In this document: positions 21,953 to 42,664 of the stretch, piece by piece
Layout of the letters: each line of letters begins with the position of its first letter
Numbering within the stretch: position 1 is the stretch's first letter
NCBI RefSeq assembly: GCF_005144885.1
Contig: NZ_CP039690.1
Location: 5,965,001 to 6,029,000, forward strand
Reading direction: 5' to 3'
DNA: 64,000 nt
DNA from: Phreatobacter stygius
GTDB taxonomy: Bacteria > Pseudomonadota > Alphaproteobacteria > Rhizobiales > Phreatobacteraceae
Notes under the pieces: model-generated
What the model was told of the DNA's origin: nothing
Database searches by the model: none
The model's input: only the letters and a program-made list of their open reading frames with translations
Made by a program: the position numbers and the translations under genes

Positions 21953-21977
21953 AACAGGCCGCTTGCCCCGAGGTTCC
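21953..21977 (-). promoter_or_regulatory. Weak EcfG-like promoter for the 72-aa gene
   Basis: On the minus strand GGAAC is followed after 16 bases by TGTT; the last element differs from the CGTT consensus at one base. Its position, 63 bases before the ATG at 21890, suits that gene. Confidence 0.35.
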
Positions 21978-22027
21978 CGGCCGGCTGTCCGAATCCACCA
22001 CGGGCCAGGCGTTTTTGCTCGGGGGCC

Positions 22028-22052
22028 GGAACAACGTGCCGGCCTGCGCGTT
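22028..22052 (+). promoter_or_regulatory. EcfG-type promoter for the 130-aa gene
   Basis: GGAAC, 16 bases, CGTT: an exact match to the alphaproteobacterial general-stress sigma factor consensus. The predicted transcript start is near 22059, giving a leader of about 23 bases that contains the GAGGA ribosome-binding site. Confidence 0.75.
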
Positions 22053-22081
22053 CGGGATTTGGATCCCCCCGAGGATGTGTC

Positions 22082-22474
22082 ATGACCCGCGACGAACCCT
22101 GGATGCGACCCTATGTCCTGTCGATCACGGGTCTGTTCCTGGAGGAAGGCTTCGGGCGTCTCGCCGAGGCCCTGGGACGGCTCGATCCGGCCGCGGCCGA
22201 GGCCACGCTGGCGCGTTTCGAGGAGATGATCGGCGCCGAGATCGCCAATATCGGTGCGCAGGAGGATATCCCGCCGGCCGTGCTGGTCGGCCTGCGGCGC
22301 AATGTCCAGAACCGGATGGCGACGGTCGTCGCCAAGGCGCGGCAAAGATTGGCGGCGGCGGGCGAGGCGGCCTCGAATTCCATGACCCCGGCGGGTGGCC
22401 AAGGCAATGGCCCGGGAAGCAGCCAGGCAAGCGCCCGCGACCGGCTGTTCGTCCACACCGTTTCGATGCCTTGA
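22082..22474 (+). CDS. Hypothetical alpha-helical protein (130 aa)
   Basis: 130 residues, ATG after GAGGATGTGTC; the frame is open further upstream, but the promoter at 22028-22052 fixes the start. The body (residues 10-90) is helical, with a regular acidic pattern (GRLAEALGRLDPAAAEATLARF as two halves). The tail is Gly/Ser/Asn-rich. No family is recognised and no signal peptide or membrane segment is present. Expected to be made under EcfG control. Confidence 0.75.
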   Translation: MTRDEPWMRPYVLSITGLFLEEGFGRLAEALGRLDPAAAEATLARFEEMIGAEIANIGAQEDIPPAVLVGLRRNVQNRMATVVAKARQRLAAAGEAASNSMTPAGGQGNGPGSSQASARDRLFVHTVSMP

Positions 22475-22512
22475 GCGAGGTGTTTGGAGCGAGGTGTTTG
22501 GCGAGGTGATTG
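22473..22512. repeat. 14-base tandem repeat at the gene end
   Basis: GAGCGAGGTGTTTG occurs twice in tandem, followed by a shortened copy (GCGAGGTGATTG). The array begins inside the stop codon of the 130-residue gene. It is not a hairpin and has no T-run. Confidence 0.65.
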
Positions 22513-22541
22513 GAACGGGGCGCCCGGCCTGGTCGGGCGGA

Positions 22542-22706
22542 TCAGATACCGGCGCCCAGGCCACCGAGCAGATAGACGATCAACAGGATGACGAGAACGG
22601 TGCCGAGGCCGCCGCCGAGGCCCCTCGAACCGTAGGCCCGGTGTCCGAAATAACCTCCACCGCCAAGCAGCAGGACGACCAGGATGATCAGAAGCAGGGT
22701 CGACAT
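22542..22706 (-). CDS. DUF3309 family small membrane protein
   Basis: 54 residues: a hydrophobic Leu/Ile-rich segment (residues 3-15), a Gly/aromatic loop (GGGGYFGHRAYGSRG) and a second hydrophobic segment (about 32-50). This is the DUF3309 layout common in Hyphomicrobiales. An inner-membrane stress peptide of unknown function. The ATG is chosen because the longer frame (to 22781) would begin right at the promoter's -10 element. Transcribed from the exact EcfG promoter at 22780-22804. Confidence 0.8.
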   Translation of the reverse strand: MSTLLLIILVVLLLGGGGYFGHRAYGSRGLGGGLGTVLVILLIVYLLGGLGAGI

Positions 22707-22779
22707 GTGAGCCTCGCGGGATCGGATTCTCGTGTCGACATGCCGCTTGGGTCTGCGGCAGTCACACGGTCGGCTATTC

Positions 22780-22804
22780 AACGCAGGTCGACCCGGAAGG
22801 TTCC
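22780..22804 (-). promoter_or_regulatory. EcfG-type promoter for the DUF3309 gene
   Basis: On the minus strand GGAAC, 16 bases, CGTT, an exact match. It points at the DUF3309 gene with a leader of about 65 bases. Confidence 0.75.
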
Positions 22805-22854: not shown

Positions 22855-23130
22855 TCAGGCGTCGCGGCGCGGTTTCGAAGGGGCGCCGGGCTTGGTCTCG
22901 GCCGAGGTCGCGGCAACCGGATCGCTCGCAGGGAAAGTGTCCTCGAGCGCCTTGTGCAGATCCTTGTCGATCAGATCCTTATCGATCAGACCCTTGTCGA
23001 TCGTCTGGCCTGCCTGTTTTGCCGGCATGGCCGGGCCCGCACCGGCGATCGCCGCCTCGAACTCGCGGGTGCCTTCGGCCTGCATGTCGTCGGCCTTGCG
23101 ATCGGCGAGCGATTTTCCCTGGCTGGTCAT
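22855..23130 (-). CDS. Small acidic/charged stress protein (91 aa)
   Basis: 91 residues from the ATG with an AGGAGGA site four bases upstream. Hydrophilic, with a repeated IDKGLIDKDLIDKDL stretch (about residues 45-60) and a Pro/Lys-rich tail (KPGAPSKPRRD); no membrane segment. No named family is assigned. The EcfG promoter 25 bases upstream excludes the longer frame to 23493. Divergent from the DUF2188 gene, with which it shares a 165-base control region. Confidence 0.75.
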   Translation of the reverse strand: MTSQGKSLADRKADDMQAEGTREFEAAIAGAGPAMPAKQAGQTIDKGLIDKDLIDKDLHKALEDTFPASDPVAATSAETKPGAPSKPRRDA

Positions 23131-23154: not shown

Positions 23155-23179
23155 AACGGAAGGCGCGCCGATCGGTTCC
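23155..23179 (-). promoter_or_regulatory. EcfG-type promoter for the 91-aa gene
   Basis: Minus-strand GGAAC, 16 bases, CGTT, exact. The predicted start near 23148 leaves a leader of about 18 bases, just enough for the strong ribosome-binding site. Confidence 0.75.
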
Positions 23180-25804: not shown

Positions 25805-25829
25805 GGAACCGGACCGCCCGCATCTCGTT
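25805..25829 (+). promoter_or_regulatory. EcfG-type promoter for the 62-aa gene
   Basis: GGAAC, 16 bases, CGTT, exact. Predicted start near 25836; the leader of about 26 bases holds the AGGAGG site of the gene at 25862. Confidence 0.75.
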
Positions 25830-25861: not shown

Positions 25862-26050
25862 ATGATGCATCCCAAGGAAGCCGGTGGATGGCAAGATGCC
25901 CAGGCGCCCGTCCAGCCGGATGACGAGGGCAAGTCGCAGCAGAGCCAGGGCAATGGCCGCCCGGCGCGCGGTGGGCAGAAGGCGCAGGCCGGCGGCCAGC
26001 CGAGCCGCCAGCAGGGCCAGAAGCCCGGATCGGCCGGCCAGCGGGGCTGA
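25862..26050 (+). CDS. Small Gln/Gly-rich hydrophilic protein (62 aa)
   Basis: 62 residues dominated by Gln, Gly, Ala and Pro (GQKAQAGGQPSRQQGQKPG); likely disordered and very soluble, hydrophilin-like. Strong AGGAGG ribosome-binding site. The promoter at 25805-25829 rules out the longer frame from 25790. No family is recognised; a role in desiccation or osmotic protection is only a guess from composition and promoter. Confidence 0.7.
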   Translation: MMHPKEAGGWQDAQAPVQPDDEGKSQQSQGNGRPARGGQKAQAGGQPSRQQGQKPGSAGQRG

Positions 26051-26157: not shown

Positions 26158-28233
26158 TTGTCCGTCGCCGCCGCCTATCTGACCAAGCTCAACCCCGAGC
26201 AGCGGCGCGCGGTCGAGCACGGCGCGGCCTCAACGGAGGCCGGCTGCGGACCGCTGCTGGTGATCGCGGGGGCGGGTTCGGGCAAGACCAATACGCTGGC
26301 CCATCGGGTCGCCCACCTGATCGTCGGCGGCGCCGATCCGCGCCGCATCATGCTGCTGACCTTTTCGCGCCGGGCGGCTGCCGAAATGACCCGAAGGGTC
26401 GAGCGCATCGCGGCCGAGGCGCTGGGTGCCAAGGCCGGCGTGATGACCGATGCCCTGACCTGGGCCGGCACTTTCCACGGCATCGGCGCGCGCATCCTGC
26501 GTGACCATGCCGGCGAGATCGGACTGGATCCGGGCTTCACCATTCATGATCGCGAGGATTCCGCCGATCTCGTCAACCTCTGCCGCCACGAGCTGGGTTT
26601 CTCCAAGACCGAGACGCGGTTTCCGACCAAGGGCACCTGCCTTGCGATCTATTCGCGCGCGGTCAATGCCGAGATGGCGCTGGAGGAGGTGCTGCGGGCG
26701 GCTTTTCCCTGGTGCATGGCCTGGACAGCGGAACTGCGGGCGCTGTTTGCCGCCTATGTCGAGGCGAAACAGCGCCACAACGTGCTCGATTACGACGACC
26801 TGTTGCTCTACTGGGCGCAAATGGTCGCCGAGCCGGCGCTCGCCGCGGAGCTTTCCGGCCGCTTCGACCATATCCTGGTCGACGAATATCAGGACACCAA
26901 CCGGCTGCAGTCGTCGATCCTCATCGCCTTGAAGCCCGCGGGGCGCGGCCTCACCGTGGTCGGCGACGACGCCCAGTCGATCTATGCGTTCCGCGCCGCG
27001 ACCGTGCGCAACATCCTCGATTTTCCCGGCCAGTTCGACCCGCCGGCCGAGATCGTCACGCTCGACCGCAACTACCGCTCGACCCAGCCGATCCTGGCCG
27101 CCGCCAATGCGGTGATCGGCGAGGCCGCCGAGCGCTTCACCAAGAATCTGTGGACCGAACGCACCTCCGGCGAGCCTCCGGGCCTCGTCACCGTGCGCGA
27201 CGAGATCGACCAGGCCCGCTACGTCGCCGACCGGATCCTGGAAAACCGCGAGACCGGCACGGCCTTGAAGGCCCAGGCGGTGCTGTTCCGCACCTCGCAT
27301 CACAGCGGCCCGCTGGAGGTCGAGCTGGTCCGGCGCAACATTCCTTTCGTCAAGTTCGGCGGGCTCAAGTTCCTCGATGCCGCCCATGTCAAGGACATGC
27401 TGGCATTGCTGCGCTTCGTGCAGAACCCGCGCGACCGCGTCGCCGGGTTCCGGGTGCTGCAGCTCATCCCGGGCGTTGGCGGCAGTTCGGCGGCACGCCT
27501 GATCGACCAGATGACCGGGGTCAGGGATCCGTTCGGCGCGCTGGCCGAGGCCGCGGCGCCGCCTCGCTCCGGCGATGACTGGCCGGCCTTTGTCGACCTG
27601 GCCTTGGCCTTGCGGTCCGGCCGGGCCGGTTGGCCGGCCGAGTTCGGCGCGGCGCGGCTCTGGTACGAACCGCATCTGGAGCGCATGCACGAGGACGCCA
27701 GCGTGCGGCGCGCCGATCTTCTGCAACTGGAGCAGATCGCCGGCGGTTATCCCTCGCGCGAGCGCTTCCTGACCGAGCTGACCCTGGATCCGCCCGACGC
27801 GACCAGCGACCAGGCCGGCATGCCCTTGCTCGACGAGGACTACCTGATCCTGTCGACCATTCATTCCGCCAAGGGCCAGGAATGGAAATCGGTCTTCGTG
27901 CTCAATGCGGTCGATGGTTGCATTCCCTCCGATCTCGGTGCCGGCACCAGTTCCGAGATCGAGGAGGAGCGGCGGCTGCTCTATGTCGCGATGACCCGCG
28001 CCAAGGACGACCTGCACCTGATGGTGCCGCAGCGCTTCTTCACCCATCAGCAGTCATCCACCGGCGACCGGCACGTCTATGCCCAGCGCACCCGGTTCAT
28101 TCCGCCCTCGGTTCTGAAAAACTTCCAGCTGACCACCTGGCCGATCGCCGCCCAGCAGGCCAATGCCGGCCGCGCCGCCGCCCAGCCGGTCAAGGTGGAT
28201 ATCGCCCAGCGCATGCGCGGCATGTGGCGCTAA
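26158..28233 (+). CDS. UvrD/PcrA-like superfamily 1 DNA helicase
   Basis: 691 residues from a TTG start; in-frame alternatives are poor. SF1A helicase motifs appear in order: Walker A AGAGSGKT (about residue 40), motif Ia LLTFSRRAA, motif II VDEYQDTN, motif III GDDAQSIYAFR, motif IV LDRNYRST, motif V STIHSAKGQEW, and motif VI VAMTRAKD. A 3'-5' DNA helicase of the UvrD/Rep type for repair or replication restart. It is shorter at the C-terminus than UvrD itself (about 720), so it is probably an accessory paralogue rather than the main UvrD. Followed 86 bases later by a stress gene. Confidence 0.92.
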   Translation: MSVAAAYLTKLNPEQRRAVEHGAASTEAGCGPLLVIAGAGSGKTNTLAHRVAHLIVGGADPRRIMLLTFSRRAAAEMTRRVERIAAEALGAKAGVMTDALTWAGTFHGIGARILRDHAGEIGLDPGFTIHDREDSADLVNLCRHELGFSKTETRFPTKGTCLAIYSRAVNAEMALEEVLRAAFPWCMAWTAELRALFAAYVEAKQRHNVLDYDDLLLYWAQMVAEPALAAELSGRFDHILVDEYQDTNRLQSSILIALKPAGRGLTVVGDDAQSIYAFRAATVRNILDFPGQFDPPAEIVTLDRNYRSTQPILAAANAVIGEAAERFTKNLWTERTSGEPPGLVTVRDEIDQARYVADRILENRETGTALKAQAVLFRTSHHSGPLEVELVRRNIPFVKFGGLKFLDAAHVKDMLALLRFVQNPRDRVAGFRVLQLIPGVGGSSAARLIDQMTGVRDPFGALAEAAAPPRSGDDWPAFVDLALALRSGRAGWPAEFGAARLWYEPHLERMHEDASVRRADLLQLEQIAGGYPSRERFLTELTLDPPDATSDQAGMPLLDEDYLILSTIHSAKGQEWKSVFVLNAVDGCIPSDLGAGTSSEIEEERRLLYVAMTRAKDDLHLMVPQRFFTHQQSSTGDRHVYAQRTRFIPPSVLKNFQLTTWPIAAQQANAGRAAAQPVKVDIAQRMRGMWR

Positions 28234-28242: not shown

Positions 28243-28267
28243 GGAACCTCACGCCTTCGATCGGGTT
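28243..28267 (+). promoter_or_regulatory. Near-consensus EcfG promoter for the first DUF883-like gene
   Basis: GGAAC, 16 bases, GGTT, the same -10 variant as at 23267. It begins 10 bases after the helicase stop codon and gives a leader of about 45 bases. Confidence 0.45.
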
Positions 28268-28319
28268 GGACCATTGACGGGCATTGCCCGCATGGGTTCA
28301 GGATCGATGGAGGTTTGTC

Positions 28320-28601
28320 ATGGCTGATGCGCAAGGCCGCACGGGATCGAACAACGGAGGCCCGGCCGGCCCGACCGAACTCGAGGACAAGATCGTCCGC
28401 GGCGCCAGCGATTTTGCCTCGTCCGCGAGCAAGACGCTGAAACATGTCGGTGTCGACACCGATGTCATGGTCGACGCCGCCAAGGGCCAGGCAACCGAAC
28501 TGCAGAAGCTGCTGATCGACGAAATCGCCGCCCGGCCGTTCCGGGCGCTCGGCATCGCCGCGGCCGTCGGTTTCGTCGTCGGCGTCTGGAACGCCCGCTG
28601 A
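28320..28601 (+). CDS. DUF883-like (ElaB/YqjD-type) membrane-anchored protein
   Basis: 93 residues; ATG after ATGGAGG. A polar N-terminus is followed by an amphipathic helical region (residues 20-65) and a C-terminal hydrophobic anchor (RALGIAAAVGFVVGVW), the layout of the ElaB/YqjD/DUF883 group. E. coli members are tail-anchored to the inner membrane and bind ribosomes in stationary phase. The second half is nearly the same as in the gene at 39949 (GVDTDVMVDAAKGQATELQ versus GVDTDVMVKAAKGQASELQ), so the two are paralogues within the same stress island. Confidence 0.82.
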   Translation: MADAQGRTGSNNGGPAGPTELEDKIVRGASDFASSASKTLKHVGVDTDVMVDAAKGQATELQKLLIDEIAARPFRALGIAAAVGFVVGVWNAR

Positions 28602-28652: not shown

Positions 28653-29567
28653 TCAGGGCAATCCTTCGGACCGGTTTCGGCGCCACGCGGTCTGGGCCGC
28701 AGCATGGGCGCGGCGATCTTCCGCACTCACCGGGAAGCGCTGGCCGAGCACCTCTTCGGCAGTCACCTCGAAACGATCGAGCACATGCGCGCCGAACGAG
28801 TTGACCAGCGGCACGTCGGCGGCGTCCTGGCCGTAGGCCATGACGATGCGGCCGATGCGCGGCATGTTGTGGCGGGCATCGAAGGTGTACCACTGGCCAT
28901 CGAGGAAGGCCTCGAACCAGGCGCAGAAATCCATCGGGGCAGGGTCCTGGGGCACGCCGATATCGGGCAGATAGCCGGTGGCATAGCGCGCCGGGATATT
29001 CATGCAGCGGCACAGCGTGATGGCCAGATGGGCGAAATCCCGGCAGACGCCGACCCGTTCCTCAAAGGCCTGGGTAGCGGTGCGCGTGTCGCGGGCAAAG
29101 TGGTAGCCGAAGCCGAGCCGGTCGTGGACGAAATCGGTGATCGCCTGGACACGGCTCCAGCCCGGCGCGACATGGCCGAAGCGGTGCCAGGCCTCCTGCG
29201 ACAGCTGATCGGTCTCGCAATAGCGGCTGCCGCGCAGGTAGATCAGGGTGTCCTCCGGCAGTTGCTCCGGCGGCACCTCGCCGGCCAAAGGCTGTACCGT
29301 GTCGGAAAAACCGGGATCGAAGATCACCCCGCCGGCCTTGAGCGACAGGCCGCCGGCCGGCGCGGTCATGCGCCGGCAGAGATTGCCGAACTGATCTTCG
29401 TGAATGGTCTGCTCGATCGGCAAGGCCGGGTCGGCCAGCGCGCTGGCGATCAGCTCGTCGGCCTGGGTCAGGTCCTGGCGCCGGCTCGGGTGAATGTCGA
29501 GCAAGGCGATCAGCGGCGTCGCCGCCTCGCACAGGATGTCGATGTGGAAGCCATAACGGATATGCAT
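28653..29567 (-). CDS. Transglutaminase-like cysteine protease family protein
   Basis: 304 residues; GGAG nine bases before the ATG. The N-terminal beta domain (1-130) precedes a transglutaminase core with the catalytic triad visible: Cys in VGVCRDFAHLAI, a Trp/His block in CAWFEAFLDGQWY, and Asp in YTFDARHN. Such bacterial proteins act as cysteine peptidases or amidases; some are linked to circularly permuted ATP-grasp and alpha-E proteins, which are absent here. No signal peptide, so cytoplasmic. No EcfG site was found in front of it. Confidence 0.85.
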   Translation of the reverse strand: MHIRYGFHIDILCEAATPLIALLDIHPSRRQDLTQADELIASALADPALPIEQTIHEDQFGNLCRRMTAPAGGLSLKAGGVIFDPGFSDTVQPLAGEVPPEQLPEDTLIYLRGSRYCETDQLSQEAWHRFGHVAPGWSRVQAITDFVHDRLGFGYHFARDTRTATQAFEERVGVCRDFAHLAITLCRCMNIPARYATGYLPDIGVPQDPAPMDFCAWFEAFLDGQWYTFDARHNMPRIGRIVMAYGQDAADVPLVNSFGAHVLDRFEVTAEEVLGQRFPVSAEDRRAHAAAQTAWRRNRSEGLP

Positions 29568-30155: not shown

Positions 30156-30181
30156 AACGTCTCGGGTCGGATCAAGGTTCC
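30156..30181 (-). promoter_or_regulatory. EcfG-type promoter for the PRC-barrel gene
   Basis: Minus-strand GGAAC, 17 bases, CGTT, exact elements with the longer permitted spacer. Leader of about 50 bases to the ATG at 30100. Confidence 0.75.
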
Positions 30182-31002: not shown

Positions 31003-31027
31003 AACGGCCTCGTGGCCAGGAAGTTCC
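31003..31027 (-). promoter_or_regulatory. EcfG-type promoter for the Crp/Fnr regulator
   Basis: Minus-strand GGAAC, 16 bases, CGTT, exact. Its -35 lies only 11 bases from the -35 of the divergent promoter at 31039, so the two compete for or share polymerase binding. Confidence 0.78.
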
Positions 31028-31038: not shown

Positions 31039-31063
31039 GGAACCTGCGCGGGGACGGGGCGTT
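31039..31063 (+). promoter_or_regulatory. EcfG-type promoter for the YddA-like ABC exporter
   Basis: GGAAC, 16 bases, CGTT, exact. Predicted start near 31070, which rules out an upstream start codon at 31062 for the following gene. Confidence 0.78.
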
Positions 31064-33004: not shown

Positions 33005-33029
33005 GGAACAACCCCAGATATCGCACGTT
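33005..33029 (+). promoter_or_regulatory. EcfG-type promoter for the 79-aa gene
   Basis: GGAAC, 16 bases, CGTT, exact; predicted start near 33036, leader about 31 bases. It begins 60 bases after the ABC exporter stop. Confidence 0.75.
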
Positions 33030-33334: not shown

Positions 33335-34990
33335 TTAGGTGGTCACCTGCCAGGTGCCGAGATCGGCGGCCGTCGCCGGCACCGGCTGGACCGCCTCGAT
33401 CTGCATGGCGAGGCCGGCAAGCATTTTCGGCTGCGGTCCGAGCGCCACGTCGCGATCGGCCGTCAGCTTGAGTTCGAAGGCCTTTTTGGCGGCGTTCGGG
33501 TTGAGATCGACGACGCGGGCGATGATATGCACGCCCTGTATGGTCCAAAGGCAGCGCGACACCACCTCGACGACCAGCAGCCCCAGCGGGATCAGGCGAT
33601 CGATCGGCAAGCTCGCCTGCGAGGCGATCTGCCCTTCCACCAATTGACCGGGGCGCGACAGCAGCCGCGAGATCGTCGCCAGCACCTCGTCCAGGAATGC
33701 GTCGACACGCACCACATGCATCTCGCCTTCGGCAAGCGCGAAACGATAGGCGATGGCCAGCACCTGGACCCGGCACTCCGCCTCGCTCAGCGCCAGCTTC
33801 GCCTCGGTTGAATGGTTGCGCTTGGCGAGCGACAGGTAGCTCTGCACGATCTGCAGGCTGTTCTTCACCCGGTGGTGCAGCTCGCGCACCAGCAGCCGGT
33901 TGCGGTCGAGCGCGGTCTGCAGCGCGTGCTGACGCTGCTCCTGCGCATCGACCATGCCGTTGAAGGCCCGCGCGACGCTCTTGATGTCCGACGGCATTTC
34001 CTCGGCGACCAGCGCGCGGGCGGTGAATGACGATTGCTCTTCCTGCCGCGCCGCCTGCTCGATGCCGCGCAGCCAGCGCAGGATGTGGCTGTGGATGGCG
34101 TGCAGATAGACCGCGCAGAGCAGGGCAAGCGTCGCCAGTGGAATGATCAGCAGCGCCAGGAACTGGGTTTGCGCGGCGCGGGTGACGGTCTGGTCGAGGC
34201 TTGCCAGGACATAAAGATCGGGCTCGGCGATCCGCTGAACGGAATAGGACCGCCGCGCGCCGGCGCGGCTGGCCGCCTCGAAGGGCTCGCCGGTTCGGGA
34301 AATGCTCCCCTCGGGCAGCCAGCTCACGTCCTTCTCGTCGGCGCCCCGGGCGATCAGGATCTGATCGCTCCGGCCGATGAGACCGACGACCGCGCCGGCC
34401 GCCAGGGCTCCGAGATCGAAGGCCCGCTCGAGCGCCGCCACGTCGGTGACGTAGAGGCCCTCCCAGCCGGTTCCGGCCCCGCCGCCGGTCGCGTGAATGG
34501 CGAGATAGTGCTTGCCGTCGATGTCGACATAATCGTAGCGCGCCGTCGTCGACGCGGCGCCCGGCAGATCCTGGACGATCGGGCGCGACGTCAGGGTCCG
34601 CGTCATGGCGTCGAGCGTCTCGGCGGACAGGGCGCCGTTGCGCGAGGCGAGGCAGGACGTGCCATTGGCGAAGCGCAGGCGCAATGCCTGGTCGTCCTGG
34701 GTGCCGGCGAGCACCTGGCGGCCGATCGCGTCGCATTGCGGGTCCGTCAGACCGGTCGCTTCGACCCCGGCGACGGTGGCGAGCAGCGCCCGAAGCGCGC
34801 CGTCGTACCAGATCCGCGTCCTGACCGCGTAATTGGCCGCCGCTTCCAGCTGGCGATCTTCGATCGATCCCAGCACCGTCCTATAAGTCGTCACCGCGGC
34901 GGTGGCGGCGAGCAGCGCCATCGGCACCGCGATCAGCACCAGAAGCCCGATCAGGCGGCCTCGGACGGTCTGGAATTTGGACAGCTTCAT
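33335..34990 (-). CDS. GSR-operon sensor histidine kinase homologue with degenerate ATPase domain
   Basis: 551 residues: TM1 (about 12-34), a periplasmic sensor of about 220 residues, TM2 (about 270-292), a HAMP-like linker, then a HisKA_2/HWE dimerisation domain with the phospho-acceptor block ELHHRVKNSLQ (His372/373). The following catalytic domain is degenerate. The N-box, normally VNELVTNALKH, reads VVEVVSRCLW with both Asn lost, and no DxGxG box is visible. It starts 15 bases after ecfG and belongs to the nepR-ecfG transcript, the usual place for a PhyR-specific kinase (PhyK-like). It probably cannot bind ATP normally; it may act as a phosphatase, as a phosphotransfer partner or through a heterodimer. 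Confidence 0.85.
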   Translation of the reverse strand: MKLSKFQTVRGRLIGLLVLIAVPMALLAATAAVTTYRTVLGSIEDRQLEAAANYAVRTRIWYDGALRALLATVAGVEATGLTDPQCDAIGRQVLAGTQDDQALRLRFANGTSCLASRNGALSAETLDAMTRTLTSRPIVQDLPGAASTTARYDYVDIDGKHYLAIHATGGGAGTGWEGLYVTDVAALERAFDLGALAAGAVVGLIGRSDQILIARGADEKDVSWLPEGSISRTGEPFEAASRAGARRSYSVQRIAEPDLYVLASLDQTVTRAAQTQFLALLIIPLATLALLCAVYLHAIHSHILRWLRGIEQAARQEEQSSFTARALVAEEMPSDIKSVARAFNGMVDAQEQRQHALQTALDRNRLLVRELHHRVKNSLQIVQSYLSLAKRNHSTEAKLALSEAECRVQVLAIAYRFALAEGEMHVVRVDAFLDEVLATISRLLSRPGQLVEGQIASQASLPIDRLIPLGLLVVEVVSRCLWTIQGVHIIARVVDLNPNAAKKAFELKLTADRDVALGPQPKMLAGLAMQIEAVQPVPATAADLGTWQVTT

Positions 34991-35005: not shown

Positions 35006-35566
35006 TCAGTTGCCGGAACCCGAGGCGCCAGTGGTCTGCAGGGCTGCGGTTGTCTTCCGGTCAGGGCCGTATTCGTCGGCGCCATGGATCTGCAGCAGCT
35101 CGGCGAGCTTGCCGCGGGCGCGATTGACACGGCTCTTGACGGTGCCGACGGCAACGCCGCAGATCTCGGCGGTTTCTTCATAGGACAGGCCGCTTGCGCC
35201 AACCATGATCAGCACTTCGCGCTGCTCGTCCGGCAGGGTCGCCAGCGCCTTGCGGAAATCGGCGAGGTCGAGATGGCTTTCCTGGTTGCCCTGGGTCGAC
35301 AGGCGTTCGGTATAGGTGCCGTCGCTGTCCTGGATCTCGCGCCCGCGTTTGCGGTAGAGCGAGAAATAGGTGTTGCGCAGGATGGTGAAGAGCCAGGCCC
35401 GCAGGCTGGTTCCGGGTTCGAATTTCTCGGCATTCGACCAGGCCTTCAAGAGCGTATCCTGGACCAGGTCGTCAGCCAGTTGCATCGAGCCGGACAGCGA
35501 TGCCGCGAAAGCCCTCAGGTTCGGAATCTCGGCAATCAGTCCGTCCCTGAAAATGTCATCGCTCAT
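35006..35566 (-). CDS. ecfG: General stress response sigma factor EcfG
   Basis: 186 residues from MSDDIFRD; the upstream in-frame ATG at 35578 is an alternative. ECF sigma factor with region 2 (about 8-75: DDLVQDTLLKAW, RAWLFTILRN) and region 4 (about 105-160: LPDEQREVLIMVGASGLSYEETAEICGV split over the helix-turn-helix, then KSRVNRAR). These match the EcfG (ECF15) group. It directs RNA polymerase to GGAAC-N16/17-CGTT promoters and is held by NepR until phosphorylated PhyR captures NepR. It overlaps the end of nepR by 11 bases and is followed by the sensor gene. Confidence 0.95.
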   Translation of the reverse strand: MSDDIFRDGLIAEIPNLRAFAASLSGSMQLADDLVQDTLLKAWSNAEKFEPGTSLRAWLFTILRNTYFSLYRKRGREIQDSDGTYTERLSTQGNQESHLDLADFRKALATLPDEQREVLIMVGASGLSYEETAEICGVAVGTVKSRVNRARGKLAELLQIHGADEYGPDRKTTAALQTTGASGSGN

Positions 35567-35777
35567 CGGTTTCACCATTCGACTGGGCCTTCAGCTCCTT
35601 GGCTTCGAGCTGCGCCAGCAGAACCAGAAAACGATCGGGGATCGGGGCCCTGACGAGATCGTCGTAATGGGCTTTCAAGGAACGGCCAATGGCATCCTGA
35701 ACGCGTTGATCGAGGACAGGCTCGTTCTCGAAGACCTCGAAATCGCGGGCGGGGTCTTCGTCTCTTGGGTTCACCAT
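35556..35777 (-). CDS. nepR: Anti-sigma factor NepR
   Basis: 73 residues; ATG (MVNPRDEDP) with GAGGA five bases upstream. The NepR core is clear: DQRVQDAIGRSLKAHYDD in helix 1 and APIPDRFLVLLAQLE in helix 2, preceded by an acidic disordered N-terminus. It binds EcfG in unstressed cells and switches to phosphorylated PhyR under stress. Its 3' end overlaps ecfG by 11 bases, coupling their translation. First gene of nepR-ecfG-kinase, divergent from phyR. Confidence 0.93.
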   Translation of the reverse strand: MVNPRDEDPARDFEVFENEPVLDQRVQDAIGRSLKAHYDDLVRAPIPDRFLVLLAQLEAKELKAQSNGETDER

Positions 35778-35876: not shown

Positions 35877-35903
35877 GGAACCTGTGCGCCTCAGGAAAGT
35901 TCC
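35877..35903. promoter_or_regulatory. Overlapping divergent EcfG-like promoters of nepR-ecfG and phyR
   Basis: The same 27 bases carry GGAAC at both ends in opposite orientation. Reading minus, GGAAC is followed after 16 bases by GGTT; reading plus, GGAAC is followed after 16 bases by AGTT. Each -10 is one base from CGTT and is contained in the -35 of the other. The arrangement would let EcfG control its own operon and phyR but not both on one DNA molecule at once. Confidence 0.6.
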
Positions 35904-35981
35904 ATGTCGAGCAAGAAATAAAATGCTTGCCAAGCGATGGCGGCAAATGTTCGCCTTCCGACCAATAAGGAGCACCATACG

Positions 35982-36767
35982 ATGTCGATCGCGAAGGAAA
36001 TAGCCCAGCATCTCCCGTACCTTAGGCGTTTCGCACGGGCTTTGTGCGGGACCCAGGCGAGCGGCGATGCCTATGTCGTGGCGACATTGGAGGCGTTGGT
36101 CGAAGACCCCACGATCTTCGAACGCAGCCTCGGCGAACGCATTGCGCTCTACCGGTTGTTCCTCAAGCTCTGGTCCTCGGTCGGCGTCAACAACGAAGGC
36201 GAGGGGGATCGGTCCTTCGCCGAGCGCAACCTCGACGCGCTGACGCCGCGCTCCCGCCAGGCCTTCCTGCTGCGCACCGTCGAGGGTTTTTCGCTGTCCG
36301 AGGTCGCCAGCATCATGGCCGAGCCGGTGGCCGACACCGCCGACCTGCTCGATCGCGCCGGCCGCGAGATCGCCGAGCAGATGGCGACCGACGTGCTGAT
36401 CATCGAGGATGAACCGATCATCGCGCTCGATATCGAGACGATGGTGCAGGAGCTCGGGCACCGGGTCACCGGCGTCGCGCGCACCCACAAGGAGGCCGTC
36501 GCCCTGGTCGCCGCCAAGCGGCCGGGCCTGGTACTCGCCGACATCCAGCTCGCCGACGGCAGCTCGGGCCTCGACGCGGTCAACGAGATCCTCCGCTCGA
36601 TCTCGGTGCCGGTCATCTTCATCACCGCCTATCCGGAACGCCTGCTCACCGGCGACCGGCCGGAACCGGCCTTCCTGATCACCAAGCCGTTCCAGCAGGA
36701 TGCGGTGAAGGCAGCGATCAGCCAGGCCTTGTTCTTCGACCGGCGCGCCGGCAAGGCGGCCGCCTGA
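35982..36767 (+). CDS. phyR: General stress response regulator PhyR
   Basis: 261 residues from the ATG with AAGGAG nine bases upstream. The N-terminal sigma-factor-like domain (1-130) mimics EcfG (YLRRFARALCG; TPRSRQAFLLRTVEGFSLSEVA over the sigma-4-like part). The C-terminal receiver domain (135-255) has IIEDEPI, phospho-acceptor Asp187 in VLADIQL, Thr in FITAYPE and Lys235 in ITKPF. Once phosphorylated, the sigma-like domain is exposed and sequesters NepR. Divergent from nepR-ecfG across 204 bases; followed by a strong terminator. Confidence 0.95.
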   Translation: MSIAKEIAQHLPYLRRFARALCGTQASGDAYVVATLEALVEDPTIFERSLGERIALYRLFLKLWSSVGVNNEGEGDRSFAERNLDALTPRSRQAFLLRTVEGFSLSEVASIMAEPVADTADLLDRAGREIAEQMATDVLIIEDEPIIALDIETMVQELGHRVTGVARTHKEAVALVAAKRPGLVLADIQLADGSSGLDAVNEILRSISVPVIFITAYPERLLTGDRPEPAFLITKPFQQDAVKAAISQALFFDRRAGKAAA

Positions 36768-36903: not shown

Positions 36904-37071
36904 TCAGCCCCTGCCGCGAACCAGACCCATGACCGCGGAGATCGCGAATGCGATCAGCGCCACCACGAAGACGATTTGGGCGGCCGACATGGCGGTTCCC
37001 GCAACGCCGCCGAAGCCAAGGGCCGCGGCAATGAGTGCGACGATCAGAAACATGATGGCCCAGCCGAACAT
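36904..37071 (-). CDS. DUF1328 family small membrane protein
   Basis: 55 residues with two hydrophobic helices and a basic end (VRGRG). It opens with the DUF1328 signature [16 protein letters not shown], followed by [12 protein letters not shown] after CAGGAGAG. An inner-membrane peptide common in proteobacteria and often stress-induced; function unknown. An exact EcfG promoter lies 39 bases upstream, and the shared terminator after phyR ends its transcript. Confidence 0.85.
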
Positions 37072-37109: not shown

Positions 37110-37134
37110 AACGCCGCGTGCCGTGTTTTGTTCC
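37110..37134 (-). promoter_or_regulatory. EcfG-type promoter for the DUF1328 gene
   Basis: Minus-strand GGAAC, 16 bases, CGTT, exact. Leader of about 32 bases to the ATG at 37071. Confidence 0.78.
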
Positions 37135-37520: not shown

Positions 37521-37545
37521 GGAACTGGTCCGTCGGGCATGCGTT
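37521..37545 (+). promoter_or_regulatory. EcfG-type promoter upstream of the response regulator
   Basis: GGAAC, 16 bases, CGTT, exact. Predicted start near 37552, about 185 bases before the regulator's TTG, an unusually long leader compared with the other sites in this island. Confidence 0.65.
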
Positions 37546-37550
37546 GCATC

Positions 37551-37661
37551 ATGACAGGGCCCATCGAAACAACGGCTTCCGAACGCGCCAGAGCGAGCGC
37601 GCGAGGCTCTTCCTTTGTGGGCGGCCCCGGCCCGGCAGGTTGCGTCGACGATATCGAATAA
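37551..37661 (+). CDS. Possible leaderless small ORF (36 aa)
   Basis: The ATG coincides with the transcript start expected from the EcfG promoter, so if translated it would be leaderless. The peptide is polar (MTGPIETTASERARAS then a Gly/Pro-rich part) and ends 75 bases before the regulator. No homologue is known to me. It may be a leader peptide, a small stress protein or chance. Confidence 0.2.
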   Translation: MTGPIETTASERARASARGSSFVGGPGPAGCVDDIE

Positions 37662-37736
37662 CGCGGCGCTAATCTATCTCTGCCAGAATCATTCAAATGA
37701 GCGGTAAGGTTCGGCTGCCAATGGAGGGATCGAACC

Positions 37737-38099
37737 TTGGCAAATACAAGAGTTCTGATCGTCGAAGACGATCCATTCATTGCGCTCGATCTTGAGGCCA
37801 CGGTCGGCGACGGCCTGGATGGCGATGCCGAGCTGGTCGTCGTCGGCTCGCTGGACGAGGCGAACAAGGCGGCGGAGGCGCCGTTATCCTTCGCCTTGCT
37901 CGATATCGACGTCATTGGCGGCAAGACCTTCGCGCTGGCCCAAGCCCTGGCCAGCCGCGGTACGCCTTTCGCCTTCGTCTCGGGCTCGTTGCCGGCGGAC
38001 CTGCCGGAACTGCTGCGCGCGGTGCCCTTCGTTCGCAAGCCGTTTTCGGCGCCCGAGATCCGGCGGCTGGTCGAGAATGTCCTGAACGCCGAGGCCTAG
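37737..38099 (+). CDS. Single-domain response regulator
   Basis: 120 residues from a TTG start with GGAGGG eight bases upstream; no other start fits. It is a bare receiver domain: VEDDPFIALD (acid pocket), ALLDIDVIGG (phospho-acceptor Asp), FVSGS (Ser in the Thr position) and VRKPFS (Lys). With no output domain it probably relays or drains phosphate, as single-domain regulators do around PhyR in other alphaproteobacteria. It is tail to tail with an HWE/HisKA_2 kinase; the two stop codons share CTAG. Confidence 0.88.
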   Translation: MANTRVLIVEDDPFIALDLEATVGDGLDGDAELVVVGSLDEANKAAEAPLSFALLDIDVIGGKTFALAQALASRGTPFAFVSGSLPADLPELLRAVPFVRKPFSAPEIRRLVENVLNAEA

Positions 38100-39481
38100 G
38101 TTTCGGTCGCTGCCGGTTCCTTTTTCGGGAAAATCAGGGTGACACGCGTGCCCGGCCTTGGCGCACCGGGATCGATCATCTCCACGGCCATCGTCGCCCG
38201 CATGCTGCGCAACAGGCTGGCGATGACCGATTGGCCAAGGCCGTCGGACTCGACTTTGGCCGGCATGCCCACGCCGTCGTCCTCGATCCGCAGCAGGACG
38301 GCATTCGTGTCGTCGGCGGCCGGGTGCACGCCAACCGTGATCGTCCCCGCCATGCCCGAGGGAAAGGCATGTTTGATCGCGTTGGTCACCAGTTCATTGA
38401 CCAGCACCACATAGGACACGGCATCGCGTCCGGGCAGCCGGATATTCTCCATGGCGAGTTTGAAGGTGATCGGGCGGCCCTCGGCGGCCTTGCCGATCTC
38501 GGCCAGGAGGTCTTCGAAATAGGGGCGGGCATCGATCTCGTCGGCCTCGATGTCGATGCGCAGGCGGCGCTGTCCGGCGGCGATCGCCTGGATGCGCGAC
38601 TGGGCCTGGGCGAGAGCGGCCTTGACCTGTGGTTCGCGCGCCTGGCGGCCCTGCACGCTGAGCAGCGCGGACACCGTCGCCAGATTGTTGCCGACCCGGT
38701 GGTTGACGTCCTTCAGCAGCGCCTCGACCCTGAGCTTCTCGTTTTCCAGCTGCTGCGTCCGCTCGGTCACGCGCCGATCGAGCAGCGCATTGGCCTGGGC
38801 CAGGCTGAGATTGCGGCGGTTGCCGACATAGAGCTGCCGCCAGGCGGCAAAGGCCAGGAAAGCCAGCGCCAGGACCACGCCCAGCGTGCTGATCAGCCTG
38901 CGCTGATTGCCGGTGGCGGTGCGCTCGGCTGAAAGCCGGGTCTCTTCGGCCTGCAGTTCGCCGACGGTGAGGCGCACCTCGTCCATCAGCCCCTTGCCGA
39001 CCTCCTGGCGGACCTGGTCGAGCGCCTTGGCCAGGTCGCCGGCGCGATAGGCGGCGATGGCCTCGTCCAGTCCCGCCATCTTGGCGGTGGCGAGATTGCG
39101 CAGCCGGGTCACACGGATGCTCTGCGCGGGATTGTCGGAGACGAGTGTGGCAAGGCTGCCGAGTTCGGCCGCGATGGCCGCTTTGCCGCTGTCATAGGGT
39201 TCCAGGAATTCCCGCCGGCCGGTGAGCAGGAAGCCGCGCTGGCCGGTCTCGGCGTCGCGCAACTGGCCGAGAAACCGCTCGGCATGTTCGCGCGCCTGCA
39301 GCGCATGGACGACGCGGCGCACCGCTTCGAGCGCCTGCAGGTTGATCAGGGCGACCATGACGATGGTCACCGCGACCGCGGCCAGCGCCAGAATGCCGCT
39401 GACCAGGGGCGTCATCGACCTCGCCCGTTGAGTTGGCCACCAATTGGTCATCGCCGAGCGCGTCTTCATCCAACCGATCAT
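38096..39481 (-). CDS. CHASE3 sensor histidine kinase, HisKA_2/HWE type
   Basis: 461 residues. TM1 (about 25-48), a periplasmic CHASE3 domain (about 55-185; RDAETGQRGFLLTG), TM2 (about 195-215), a coiled-coil linker, then KDVNHRVGNNLATVSALLS with the phospho-acceptor His. The ATPase domain is intact: N-box VLVNELVTNAIKHAF and D-box IEDDGVGMP. Kinases with this dimerisation domain are the usual activators of PhyR and of single-domain regulators. Given its location it is a good candidate for the functional stress kinase here; that is inference. Met11 is an alternative start. Confidence 0.9.
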   Translation of the reverse strand: MIGWMKTRSAMTNWWPTQRARSMTPLVSGILALAAVAVTIVMVALINLQALEAVRRVVHALQAREHAERFLGQLRDAETGQRGFLLTGRREFLEPYDSGKAAIAAELGSLATLVSDNPAQSIRVTRLRNLATAKMAGLDEAIAAYRAGDLAKALDQVRQEVGKGLMDEVRLTVGELQAEETRLSAERTATGNQRRLISTLGVVLALAFLAFAAWRQLYVGNRRNLSLAQANALLDRRVTERTQQLENEKLRVEALLKDVNHRVGNNLATVSALLSVQGRQAREPQVKAALAQAQSRIQAIAAGQRRLRIDIEADEIDARPYFEDLLAEIGKAAEGRPITFKLAMENIRLPGRDAVSYVVLVNELVTNAIKHAFPSGMAGTITVGVHPAADDTNAVLLRIEDDGVGMPAKVESDGLGQSVIASLLRSMRATMAVEMIDPGAPRPGTRVTLIFPKKEPAATET

Positions 39482-39548: not shown

Positions 39549-39947
39549 TCAGCGGCCCAATTGGCGGCCGAGCGCGGCGCCGAGCAAGACGATGCCGCCG
39601 AGCGCGGCGACCTTGAGCGTGTTCTTCGAGCCGAGCGCGCTCGCCGCGATCGGCGCGGCGACCAGCGCCGTGGTCGCCAGGGCATTGGACCTGCGCGGAC
39701 GCGATTGCATGAAGGCTGCGATGGCAAAAATGACCAGCGCGACGACGAACAGGCCGGCGGCGATCACCAGGCTCGCCACCACCGCATCGTAACGCAGGGC
39801 GAGCATGGTGTAGAGCCCGGCGAGCGCAAAGCCGCAGGCGACGACGCCGATCAGAATCGCGACGACATAGAGGCCGTGGACGACCAGGCTCTTCCTGATC
39901 GATTGGCCTGCCTCGCTCATGGCCAGCGCGCCGAGCACCTTGAACAT
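39549..39947 (-). CDS. Small multi-pass membrane protein (phage-holin-like/DUF1469-like layout)
   Basis: 132 residues with two strong TM helices (about 25-48 and 55-78), an amphipathic linker, then a weaker Ala/Gly-rich hydrophobic C-terminus. The layout resembles the holin-superfamily III / DUF1469 proteins that often follow DUF883 genes, as this one does. It starts two bases before the DUF883 stop codon region ends (TGACATG), so it is co-translated with it and falls under the same EcfG promoter. Confidence 0.75.
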   Translation of the reverse strand: MFKVLGALAMSEAGQSIRKSLVVHGLYVVAILIGVVACGFALAGLYTMLALRYDAVVASLVIAAGLFVVALVIFAIAAFMQSRPRRSNALATTALVAAPIAASALGSKNTLKVAALGGIVLLGAALGRQLGR

Positions 39948-39948: not shown

Positions 39949-40284
39949 TCAGCGCGCCGTCATGAAACCGACGACCAGGCCAATGGCCGCGGCAATGCCG
40001 AGCGCGCGCAGCGGCCGGGCTTTCAGCTCGTCCGCCACCAGGCGCTGCAGTTCCGACGCCTGGCCCTTGGCGGCCTTGACCATCACGTCAGTGTCGACGC
40101 CGGCCGCTTTCAGCTTCTGATTGACGTTCGCCGCCAGTTCCTCGGCATTGCGCACGACGGTGTCCTGCAATTCCGAAGCCTCCTCGCGCGCCTTGGTGGC
40201 GGTTGCCGAAACGCGCTCGGCGGCGTCCTCGGCCGCGGCCGAGACAGCCGACAGTCGTTTGCCCGACGAAACAGGATTGGCCAT
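39949..40284 (-). CDS. DUF883 family membrane-anchored protein
   Basis: 111 residues; ATG after AAGGAG. A long amphipathic helix (about 10-80; ASELQDTVVRNAEELAANV) is followed by a C-terminal anchor (RALGIAAAIGLVVGFM). DUF883/ElaB proteins are tail-anchored inner-membrane proteins, some ribosome-binding. Paralogue of the gene at 28320 over its last 55 residues. Operon partner of the following holin-like gene. Exact EcfG promoter about 70 bases upstream. Confidence 0.85.
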   Translation of the reverse strand: MANPVSSGKRLSAVSAAAEDAAERVSATATKAREEASELQDTVVRNAEELAANVNQKLKAAGVDTDVMVKAAKGQASELQRLVADELKARPLRALGIAAAIGLVVGFMTAR

Positions 40285-40356: not shown

Positions 40357-40381
40357 AACGTCCGGCCCTCCGATCGGTTCC
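40357..40381 (-). promoter_or_regulatory. EcfG-type promoter for the DUF883/holin-like operon
   Basis: Minus-strand GGAAC, 16 bases, CGTT, exact. It ends 10 bases from the stop codon of the PerM-like gene, so the stress promoter lies in a very short intergenic gap. Confidence 0.76.
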
Positions 40382-40390
40382 CGGACCATC

Positions 40391-41518
40391 TCACGGGGTC
40401 GGTGCGGCCGGCGGGCAGCGTTCTTCGGCGCGGTATTTGGCGAAGGTTTCGACGCCGACCATCGCGATCAGCAGGATCGGCGTCGACAGCACGGCGCCGA
40501 TCGGCCCCCACAGCCAGAGCCAGAAGATGAAGGAGATGAACACCAGGAAGGGCGACACGGTCAGCCTGTTGCCGACCACGGCGGGGGTCACGGCATTGCT
40601 CTCCACGAGATGCAGGACATAGAAGGCGGCGGCCGGCCAAAGCGCGGCAAGCGTGGTCGTGGTCGTTAGCAGGCCGGCTGCGAACAGCAGCGCCGCGACG
40701 ATGATCGGGCCGACAAAGGCGAGATAGTTCAGCAGGAACGCCAGCGCTCCCCAGAAGATCGGAAACGGCAGGCCGGCGATCCAGGCGATGATCGTCGTGG
40801 CCGCGCCCAGTCCCAGATTGATGACCGTGACGATGCCGAGATAGGCAGCCACCCGCTCTTCGATTTCTTCGAAGAAGCCGCCTGCCGATTTCCGGGCCCC
40901 GCGGCCAAGGCAGAGGCGGAGGATGCGCGCCTTCATGATGCGACGGGTGGCCAGGTAGAAATAGGTGGTGGCAATGAAAATGAGCACGCCGCCGGCGGCC
41001 GCGGAGGACGATATGGCGAAATGCATCACCTGGCTGCCGCCGGCGACGTTGACCTGCAGGCCCGACGAGGTCGAGAGGCTCTCGAGCGCGGTTTCGACCT
41101 GTTTGATGATCGCAAATATGTCGGCGAGCTTGGCCTGGAGCGCCGCCATCATGGCCGGCAACTGGTCGCTCCAGGCGGCGATCGGGACGGTGAGCAATGA
41201 GAGCGCGGCAAGTGTCAGACCGACGCTGGCCAGCACGAGGACCGCCGCCGCCAGATGCCTTGGAACCCCGTGCCGAACCAGCCGATCGACGAGCGGGCCG
41301 AGAACCAGGCCGATGATGACGCCGGCGGTTACCGGCAGGGAGATGGCGCGGGTCATGTTCAGCGTGGCGATCGCCAGAATGACGAATATTCCGACCGCCG
41401 CATAACGCAGGACGAGATCGTGTTCGAAGGTTCCGCCGTCATCGATGGCGTGCTCGTCGGTATCGTCCGTCGGCGGGTCATAAGACGCCAGCGCGCTCAG
41501 GAAGTTGTCCCATGCCAT
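40391..41518 (-). CDS. AI-2E/PerM family membrane transporter
   Basis: 375 residues from MAWDNFLSAL; the frame is open to 41791, but the EcfG promoter fixes the start. Acidic cytoplasmic N-terminus, then about seven or eight TM helices with the family pattern: two N-terminal helices (FVILAIATLNMTRA; SLPVTAGVIIGLVLGP), a long amphipathic region, and a C-terminal helix bundle with GLPFPIFWGALAFLLNYLAFVGP split over two helices. The family includes TqsA (AI-2 export) and sodium/proton antiporter-like members; substrate unknown. Confidence 0.87.
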   Translation of the reverse strand: MAWDNFLSALASYDPPTDDTDEHAIDDGGTFEHDLVLRYAAVGIFVILAIATLNMTRAISLPVTAGVIIGLVLGPLVDRLVRHGVPRHLAAAVLVLASVGLTLAALSLLTVPIAAWSDQLPAMMAALQAKLADIFAIIKQVETALESLSTSSGLQVNVAGGSQVMHFAISSSAAAGGVLIFIATTYFYLATRRIMKARILRLCLGRGARKSAGGFFEEIEERVAAYLGIVTVINLGLGAATTIIAWIAGLPFPIFWGALAFLLNYLAFVGPIIVAALLFAAGLLTTTTTLAALWPAAAFYVLHLVESNAVTPAVVGNRLTVSPFLVFISFIFWLWLWGPIGAVLSTPILLIAMVGVETFAKYRAEERCPPAAPTP

Positions 41519-41563
41519 GGTCTGACCCTTTGCCGGCTCTCGCCGTCTGTCCGGCGCCGCATC

Positions 41564-41589
41564 AACGCGTGGGCCCCAGCCATAGTTCC
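41564..41589 (-). promoter_or_regulatory. EcfG-type promoter for the PerM-like gene
   Basis: Minus-strand GGAAC, 17 bases, CGTT, exact elements. Leader of about 40 bases. It is the only recognisable element in the 317 bases between this gene and the divergent gene at 41836; the rest shows nothing. Confidence 0.72.
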
Positions 41590-41835
41590 ACATGGCCCGC
41601 GTGTGGTTTTTGGTCCGAGCGCTTTTTGCAGGCCTCGACGATCGGGACGCTGGGGGAAGGCGGGTGCGGTGCCGGTCACGCGGCCGCCTTGCGTGAGTTG
41701 ACGCTGGGGTTGCCCCAGGGTCGGTCGAAAGATCCATTGTCGTGCGGATCGGAATGACGGTTATGTGCGGCAACACACTCGACCATTGCACGGGCGATCA
41801 TATAGTTTGTGCAATGGCCGGATCATTGATGGCCG

Positions 41836-42321
41836 ATGAATTCGCAAGATCTGACCCAAGAAGTGACCGTGCCGATCCGTCGTATTCTCGCTGCCCTGCT
41901 CTGGACGATGCTGGTCGCCGGTCCGGCGCGCGCCCAATGGCTGGTGCAGGATATCGCGGCACGACCGGGCAGTGCCGCCGTGCTCGACCTGACTTACCGC
42001 AGTTCGGGCGAGAAATTCACGGTCGTCTGCAGCGAAACCGGTGTGTTCATCTCCTACGCCGCGGGATTCCGGGTCGATCGCCCGCGCGACAGGCCGATAG
42101 CGGGCACCTATCAGATCGACGACGGGCCTTCCAAGCCGATCAGCTGGACCACGCCGGGACGCACGGCCTATGTCAGCGCGCGTTATGCCGAATCCCTGCT
42201 GCGCGATATTGCCGGCGCCGCGCGTCTGTTCATTCAGTTCGCCGGTGTCGAGCAGACCTTCGACCTGACGCCGCTTCTGCCCTATGCCGAATCGATCAGG
42301 CGGCGGTGCCGGATGCCGTAG
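41836..42321 (+). CDS. Exported hypothetical protein (161 aa)
   Basis: 161 residues with a Sec signal (basic IRR, hydrophobic ILAALLWTMLVAG, cleavage after ARA near residue 34). The mature part is a beta-rich domain with two Cys (TVVCSETG; RRRCRMP), which could form a disulfide in the periplasm. No family is recognised. GTG codons at 41863 and 41869 are alternative starts. Its last 40 bases overlap the convergent small gene. Confidence 0.7.
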   Translation: MNSQDLTQEVTVPIRRILAALLWTMLVAGPARAQWLVQDIAARPGSAAVLDLTYRSSGEKFTVVCSETGVFISYAAGFRVDRPRDRPIAGTYQIDDGPSKPISWTTPGRTAYVSARYAESLLRDIAGAARLFIQFAGVEQTFDLTPLLPYAESIRRRCRMP

Positions 42322-42581
42322 GGCGAGCCCCCCGATCGGGTCCTGACGGCCGCTCCTTCGCCTTCGAAGGGCAGGGTCTCGGTGGCGAATGTCGGCGGGG
42401 TCTCGGCGAGGCCGGTGGCGAAGGCCTTGACCACGGCACGGCCGACCGCCGCCCGGGCCTCCCGGTCTTCGTGGAACAGGCCGAGTTCCTCGCAGGTCTG
42501 GTCGAATTTCAGCCGCATCTGCCGAATGTCCTGAAGACTATAGAGGCAGCGCGGGCCGGGCCGAGCGATGTCGTCGCGCAT
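42282..42581 (-). CDS. Hypothetical protein (99 aa)
   Basis: 99 residues; ATG about nine bases after GAGGGAGG. The middle (LYSLQDIRQMRLKFDQTCEELGLF, over two helices) is helical and looks like the short conserved hypothetical proteins of rhizobia; the tail is basic. No membrane segment. The frame extends to 42752 with less convincing content. A GGTT-type EcfG-like site lies about 60 bases upstream. The 3' end overlaps the convergent exported-protein gene by 40 bases. Confidence 0.65.
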   Translation of the reverse strand: MRDDIARPGPRCLYSLQDIRQMRLKFDQTCEELGLFHEDREARAAVGRAVVKAFATGLAETPPTFATETLPFEGEGAAVRTRSGGSPYGIRHRRLIDSA

Positions 42582-42638
42582 GGCATGAGCCTCCCTCACA
42601 AACCGGCCGAAGCGGCAGGCAGGCCAGCTCGGTCCGAC

Positions 42639-42664
42639 AACCCGCGGGCCCCGGTCTTTGTTCC
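42639..42664 (-). promoter_or_regulatory. Weak EcfG-like promoter for the 99-aa gene
   Basis: Minus-strand GGAAC, 17 bases, GGTT. One mismatch to consensus, but correctly placed for the gene starting at 42581 and using the same -10 variant as other near-matches here. Confidence 0.35.

Follow-up and report, generated by a model that had tools for sequence, protein, structure and literature searches.

We identified an apparent island of stress-response genes in Phreatobacter stygius, in which twelve exact copies of the promoter motif associated with the sigma factor EcfG (GGAAC-N16/17-CGTT, that is, the two words separated by 16 or 17 nucleotides) lie around the genes for EcfG and for PhyR, the switch of the general stress response. 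The window (the whole stretch of DNA that was analysed, 64 kb, C1:5965001-6029000 of a complete one-contig genome of 7,354,671 bases) contains twelve exact matches, all within 22.0-41.6 kb; 100 dinucleotide shuffles of the window gave a mean of 0.77 exact sites and never more than 3. Our scan recovered every one of the twelve sites that the original prediction, made from the letters of the window, had placed there, at the same coordinates and on the same strands. Judging from sequence, we consider it very likely that the stretch from 21.9 to 42.7 kb is a general-stress-response hub with an EcfG-driven gene island (island 1); that the twelve are EcfG promoters we infer from their consensus, position and conservation. 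The sites are as follows, with their state in the closest relative (G003, whose phyR is 92% identical) and, where informative, in a second relative of the same genus (G007):

22028..22052, plus strand: exact site, 29 nucleotides before a gene of 130 amino acids (22082-22474); exact in G003
22780..22804, minus strand: exact site before a DUF3309 gene (22542-22706); one mismatch in G003
23155..23179, minus strand: exact site before a gene of 91 amino acids (22855-23130); one mismatch in G003, exact in G007
25805..25829, plus strand: exact site before a gene of 62 amino acids (25862-26050); one mismatch in G003
30156..30181, minus strand: exact site (N17) before a PRC-barrel gene (29705-30100); exact in G003 and G007
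31003..31027, minus strand: exact site before a Crp/Fnr-type regulator (30208-30972); exact in G003
31039..31063, plus strand: exact site, divergent partner of the preceding one, before a fused ABC transporter (31125-32945); exact in seven of nine same-genus relatives, one mismatch in one
33005..33029, plus strand: exact site before a gene of 79 amino acids (33067-33306); one mismatch in G003 and G007
37110..37134, minus strand: exact site before a DUF1328 gene (36904-37071); exact in G003 and four other same-genus relatives
37521..37545, plus strand: exact site before a single-domain response regulator (37737-38099); one mismatch in G003
40357..40381, minus strand: exact site before a DUF883_C-like gene (39949-40284) and a gene of 132 amino acids (39549-39947); exact in G003
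41564..41589, minus strand: exact site (N17) before an AI-2E/PerM-like transporter (40391-41518); exact in G003 and G007

All twelve lie ahead of a gene, and eleven of them are 24-73 bases ahead of the start codon of a credible gene, as had been claimed; the twelfth (37521, plus strand) is 191 bases ahead of the response-regulator gene. Several sites fall inside or at the beginning of the longest possible open reading frame, so the shorter gene starts are favoured, which agrees with the earlier claim that motif and gene starts support each other. A mechanical gene caller (promoter position meaning a gene start at most 250 nucleotides downstream and a site not within a gene) placed 11 of the 12 in promoter position; its one miss is the site at 23155, minus strand, where an antisense open reading frame was preferred over the gene of 91 amino acids. 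In G003, the 350 nucleotides upstream of the ortholog contain a site with no more than one mismatch for all twelve promoters, seven of these sites being exact. For one of the nine same-genus relatives, the phyR stretch gave no homolog of the ABC transporter. The 191-nucleotide leader between the exact site and the response regulator (37545-37737) corresponds in another relative, G008, to an interval with an open reading frame of 49 amino acids; an Rfam scan of the window from 21 to 44 kb, including this leader, gave no match.

The regulators at the centre of island 1 are:

35937..36767, plus strand: phyR (longest start; the gene caller prefers 35982)
35006..35578, minus strand: ecfG, with Pfam sigma regions 2 and 4
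35556..35777, minus strand: putative nepR, 73 amino acids, overlapping ecfG, assigned by position; an 84% identical gene is present in G003
33335..34990, minus strand: HisKA_2 histidine kinase with an HRXXN motif, downstream of ecfG
38096..39481, minus strand: CHASE3-HisKA_2 histidine kinase with an HRXXN motif
35877..35903, both strands: palindromic GGAAC-N17-GTTCC between phyR and nepR; same arrangement in G003

The PhyR protein has sigma-like and receiver domains and scores 371.5 bits against NF006623 (cut-off 240), and EcfG scores 248.6 bits against NF009199 (cut-off 219); the identity of the latter within ECF15 rests on locus and family. The runner-up EcfG-like protein in the genome has 36% identity (59 bits) and no close ecfG paralog was found, so that the genome likely has one canonical EcfG. 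The phyR gene is divergent from nepR-ecfG, with only one-mismatch sites between them, on both strands: the palindrome reads as a site ending in AGTT towards phyR and one ending in GGTT towards nepR-ecfG, each −35 word overlapping the −10 word of the opposite direction. The GGTT site fits the published C/GGTT consensus. We found no EcfG-type site ahead of the CHASE3-HisKA_2 kinase. Such a palindrome is not a general design of these loci: GGAAC-N15-18-GTTCC occurs in 3 of 68 divergent loci, and superposed sites in 8 of 68.

The original prediction had proposed a scan of the whole genome, and this yielded 123 exact sites (80 N16 and 43 N17). As background we used the identical two words at spacers 18-23 (221 sites genome-wide, about 74 per two spacers), from which 0.21 sites are expected in the stretch of about 20.7 kb that holds the twelve. 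When the spacer is varied over this stretch (20.7-20.8 kb), N16 gives 10 sites and N17 gives 2, spacers 8-15 give none each, and spacers 18-30 give 0-2 each. Among 5000 random placements of the 123, the fullest 20-kb interval had 6 sites, while the two densest stretches of the real genome, island 1 and a second island described below, hold 12 and 13; together, 28 of the 123 sites lie in two stretches totalling 54 kb. These make up 0.74% of the genome and about 56% of the above-background sites; outside them the count of 95 sites exceeds the expected 73 by about 22 (P 0.008). Promoter position, by the mechanical class above, is taken by 11 of 12 sites in island 1 and by 32 of 94 outside (P 2e-4; 94 of the 95 outside sites). 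The predicted cluster is real, far above genome density, centred on a bona fide phyR and ecfG, and its promoters are kept in G003. Near the contig ends, two identical 26-base matches on opposite strands (C1:24415-24440 and C1:7345841-7345866) suggest an inverted repeat.

The GGTT variant of the motif is permitted by the consensus given in the relevant part of PMC4814048, and played no part in defining the islands. Of the 93 such sites in the genome, island 1 has 5, where 0.26 are expected, and island 2 has 8, where 0.43 are expected. Two GGTT-variant sites in the stretch from 21.9 to 42.7 kb are:

28243..28267, plus strand: GGTT-variant site before a DUF883_C-like gene (28284-28601)
42639..42664, minus strand: GGTT-variant site (N17) before a gene of 99 amino acids (42282-42581); as a single variant site, weak evidence

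Ahead of the PRC-barrel gene, 30154-30181 is an overlapping pair on the two strands, exact on the minus strand and GGTT on the plus strand.

The second cluster (C1:6830643-6864254, loci L133-L135) lies 0.82 Mb from island 1 and contains 16 exact sites in 34 kb, 13 of which start inside one 20-kb window. Equal site density elsewhere had been named as an observation that would speak against the original prediction, and in part it was made: one other stretch is equally dense, but it looks like a second EcfG island and not like background. It encodes Ku, LigD, DNA topoisomerase IB, CsbD, DUF892, transglutaminase and HWE kinase families, and a protein with a weak YflT match under the Pfam cut-off; paired Ku matches in relatives suggest a further Ku-like gene. 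Island 2 holds no phyR and no close ecfG.

Behind the exact sites of island 1 are DUF3309, PRC-barrel, Crp/Fnr, ABC transporter, DUF1328, single-domain response regulator, DUF883_C-like (a match under the Pfam cut-off) and AI-2E/PerM-like proteins; the site-bearing small proteins of 130, 91, 62 and 79 amino acids have no Pfam match. That the unnamed small genes are stress genes is a prediction. The fused ABC transporter matches the ABC_membrane_2 and SbmA/BacA-like families; it had been called an ABC exporter, and the ABC transporter part of this stands, while export is not supported by these families, which do not tell the direction of transport. A DAGK/YegS-like kinase, a trehalose phosphatase, the second DUF883_C-like gene (with its GGTT site) and the following two genes lie in the stretch without an exact site:

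26158-28233: UvrD-like helicase, after the gene of 62 amino acids (25862-26050)
28653-29567: transglutaminase-like gene, on the same strand as, and after, the PRC-barrel gene (29705-30100)

Immediately to the left of the island is a large autotransporter gene (17584-21456; 1290 amino acids, with PATR repeats and a beta-domain).

The original prediction held such clustering to be unusual, and here the comparison went the other way: sites are in excess near phyR in eight of the nine genomes tested from the genus and in 11 of the 12 from the order. Of 11 relatives in the genus, 9 were readable around phyR; in eight of them the 37 kb contain 6-11 sites, where 0.5-0.9 would be expected (P below 1e-4 in every case), and the ninth, G005, has 2 sites in 37 kb (P 0.14). 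In G007 and G008, each one contig, the N16 sites are clustered beyond 2000 random placements. From the same order, we fetched 12 of 13 genomes with a strong PhyR match; they contain 57 sites against 3.5 expected, 11 of them being in excess and one having no site. At least two sites lie beyond 1 kb from the centre in seven of these 12 genomes, whereas in G038 and G015 every site is within 1 kb of it, and these are probably promoters of the regulators themselves. Outside the order, eight genomes yielded 21 sites where the spacer control gave 2.0, and none of them had more than five. One same-order genome, G028, has two PhyR-like genes (C1:819680-828686 and C5:406315-410724), with five exact sites beside each.

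We also compared phyR loci from named relatives, taking the best 80 of 566 found; this set and the same-genus set overlap by one (L037 and G005 appear to be one genome), and its nearest phyR loci belong to Boseaceae. The 57 full-length loci have a median of 2 sites outside the phyR core, with three or more in 27, five or more in 18 and none in 14. The count is 9-13 sites in 21 kb for Alsobacter loci and none or one for several Bradyrhizobium loci; the sparse genera seem to include the well-studied ones, a possible reason why the pattern drew little notice. Among these best 80 loci, an exact site stands ahead of all homologs of the DUF883-like genes (11 of 11 for the type of gene 28284-28601, and 7 of 7 for the other), of 16 of 26 DUF1328 and 6 of 13 PerM homologs, and less often ahead of homologs of the PRC (4/20), Crp (4/12), ABC transporter (5/28) and response regulator (6/28) genes; for DUF3309 there was none in 10. 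Near phyR, these loci encode 109 non-redundant proteins preceded by a site, among which DUF883, PRC, HWE kinase, PerM, DUF1328, DAGK, Crp, Ku, CsbD and DUF3309 recur.

The clearest connection between the two islands is found in G007, where one continuous region around phyR carries orthologs from both. Ten of the 40 island-2 proteins have an ortholog with at least 50% identity in this 52-kb region. The corresponding figures are 2 of 279 for proteins encoded at 90 other loci (P 2e-8) and 0 of 25 for the flanks of island 2. Of the best 80 loci, 5 have Ku-like genes and 4 have LigD close to phyR; in G003, G006, G008 and G002 the ku genes are in small clusters of EcfG-type sites distant from phyR. 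Co-location may be actively maintained, with genes entering, leaving and shuttling between islands.

Several results weigh against the overall reading of the islands as EcfG-controlled and exchanging genes. A reversed-pattern control gives 161 sites genome-wide against 123 for the motif; by that control there is no genome-wide excess of the motif, the excess being local, and it was because the reversed pattern outnumbered the motif that the other-spacer background was adopted. One-mismatch N17 sites in the window (8, with 12.5 expected) are not above chance, and promoter position in island 2 (9 of 16) is not significantly above that outside (P 0.10). Four site-bearing genes of island 1 (130, 91, 62 and 79 amino acids) have no homolog in the best 80 loci. 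NepR matches NF051865 with an E-value of 1.8e-5 but only 24.5 bits, under the cut-off of 100, and the phyR/nepR intergenic region lacks an exact site, whereas eight of nine same-genus relatives (including G007) keep one towards nepR. Finally, 1 of 40 island-2 proteins (the transglutaminase) is found near phyR in seven other members of the genus, and 0 of 40 in G003, so the case for exchange leans mainly on G007.

The partner switch and the dependence on EcfG follow established knowledge of PhyR-NepR-EcfG systems. In the proposed mechanism, phosphorylated PhyR would sequester NepR and so release EcfG, which would drive its own operon and also, through GGAAC-N16/17-CGTT, some 12-18 separate short transcription units within the same 20 kb. 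The products would be small stress-type proteins (DUF3309, DUF1328, DUF883-like and PRC-barrel), two transporters (SbmA/BacA-like ABC and PerM-like), a Crp/Fnr regulator and a single-domain response regulator. The remainder of the exact-consensus regulon would comprise island 2, which includes the Ku/LigD genes for end joining, together with scattered sites numbering perhaps 20. A wider proposal, which we put forward tentatively and as rather less probable than its opposite, is that the EcfG regulon in Hyphomicrobiales is a spatial regulon, in which selection keeps targets close to phyR-ecfG and in a small number of satellite islands, and in which genes relocate between islands while the EcfG promoter is kept. 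Selection for co-location, landing-pad accretion or a local-source effect may each lie behind the clustering.

An alternative account, somewhat less probable again, is a local autoregulatory neighbourhood, in which EcfG targets are mostly adjacent, as with many extracytoplasmic function sigma factors, and no special island organisation exists. It agrees with the density of sites around phyR in the best 80 loci, which peaks in the bins adjoining phyR and declines over about 7 kb, with the 14 full-length loci lacking sites beyond the core, and with the three same-order genomes that have core sites only (two) or none (one). It fits less well with the extent of island 1, from 14 kb upstream to 5.6 kb downstream of phyR, with an island 2 remote from any phyR or close ecfG, with the roughly 22 above-background sites elsewhere in the genome, and with the 27 full-length loci that have three or more sites beyond the core. 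A horizontally acquired island, whose genes came jointly as a mobile module, is improbable: gene content diverges strongly among same-genus relatives, and nonhomologous end-joining genes are found in only four of the nine same-genus genomes searched, but the G+C content does not deviate (0.662 in island 1 and 0.666 in the window; 0.675 in island 2, with flanks of 0.675 and 0.674) and does not suggest recent transfer, there is no tRNA gene in the window, island 1 is mostly common to G003 in the same order, and its members turn up repeatedly near phyR throughout the order. Tandem duplication of one promoter-gene unit, multiplying its sites, is very improbable; the presence of two DUF883_C-like genes, and of a transglutaminase in each island, is in its favour, but it is mostly refuted by the twelve spacers, which all differ, and by the genes behind them, which belong to different families or to none. 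Chance and local composition we regard as hardly credible, since the spacer control confines the enrichment to spacers 16 and 17 and the sites are conserved in G003, although GGAAC is locally frequent (3.27 per kb in the island and 2.08 in the remaining window, a surplus that partly consists of the sites themselves) and the reversed-pattern count fits such an origin.

If the regulon is spatial, a scarce sigma factor may work best near its source, or the islands may be landing pads that give instant stress-inducibility. Many targets of the alphaproteobacterial general stress response have unknown function, and if neighbourhood and promoter together mark stress genes, phyR islands would provide a cheap listing of them in organisms never stressed in the laboratory. 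They would also be a natural system for the effects of distance between a sigma-factor gene and its targets, since the same genes adjoin phyR in one species but occupy a distant island in another.

We found no description of phyR-centred EcfG islands in the literature searched, to which the main subscription reviews did not belong, so prior notice is possible. Clustering of regulons in general is already known: according to the passages concerned of PMC3250446, operons of one regulon in E. coli and B. subtilis tend towards a few clusters, but these generally unite one metabolic pathway, whereas here unrelated small stress genes lie with the sigma factor's own switch. For the PhyR family, the binding of phosphorylated PhyR to NepR, which frees EcfG, is established (PMC8103513, in the part concerned). 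The PhyR-NepR-EcfG locus (ECF15), as described in the relevant parts of PMC8103513 and PMC4814048, has in common with ours a phyR divergent from ecfG (with the putative nepR here), the nearby HRXXN kinases and, as predicted here, EcfG-type promoters; it differs in that here such predicted promoters span about 20 kb of small genes, and in the extra island without phyR or ecfG. Mapped EcfG regulons (Sphingopyxis, Sphingomonas, S. meliloti, R. etli and M. extorquens) gave the consensus GGAAC-N16-CGTT or GAAC-N16,17-C/GGTT, and the passages concerned do not describe clustering around phyR; M. extorquens, in the passage concerned, has no ecfG at the phyR locus, unlike the genome studied here. In R. 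etli, the EcfG-dependent noncoding RNA ReC64 lies beside phyR (PMC3892343, in the passage concerned); it is a single noncoding RNA and not a gene island, and the likeness is that of an EcfG-dependent transcript beside the phyR locus. The response regulator at 37737-38099 recalls, by resemblance only, MrrA, which in the relevant part of PMC5964349 acts as a single-domain hub for the stress response in Caulobacter. Island 2 has a parallel in Sphingopyxis, where control of ku-ligD by the general stress response is reported (PMC7083833, in the part that treats it). Both csbD and ku-ligD are among the targets of the EcfG regulon mapped there, and the second island here contains genes of these families.

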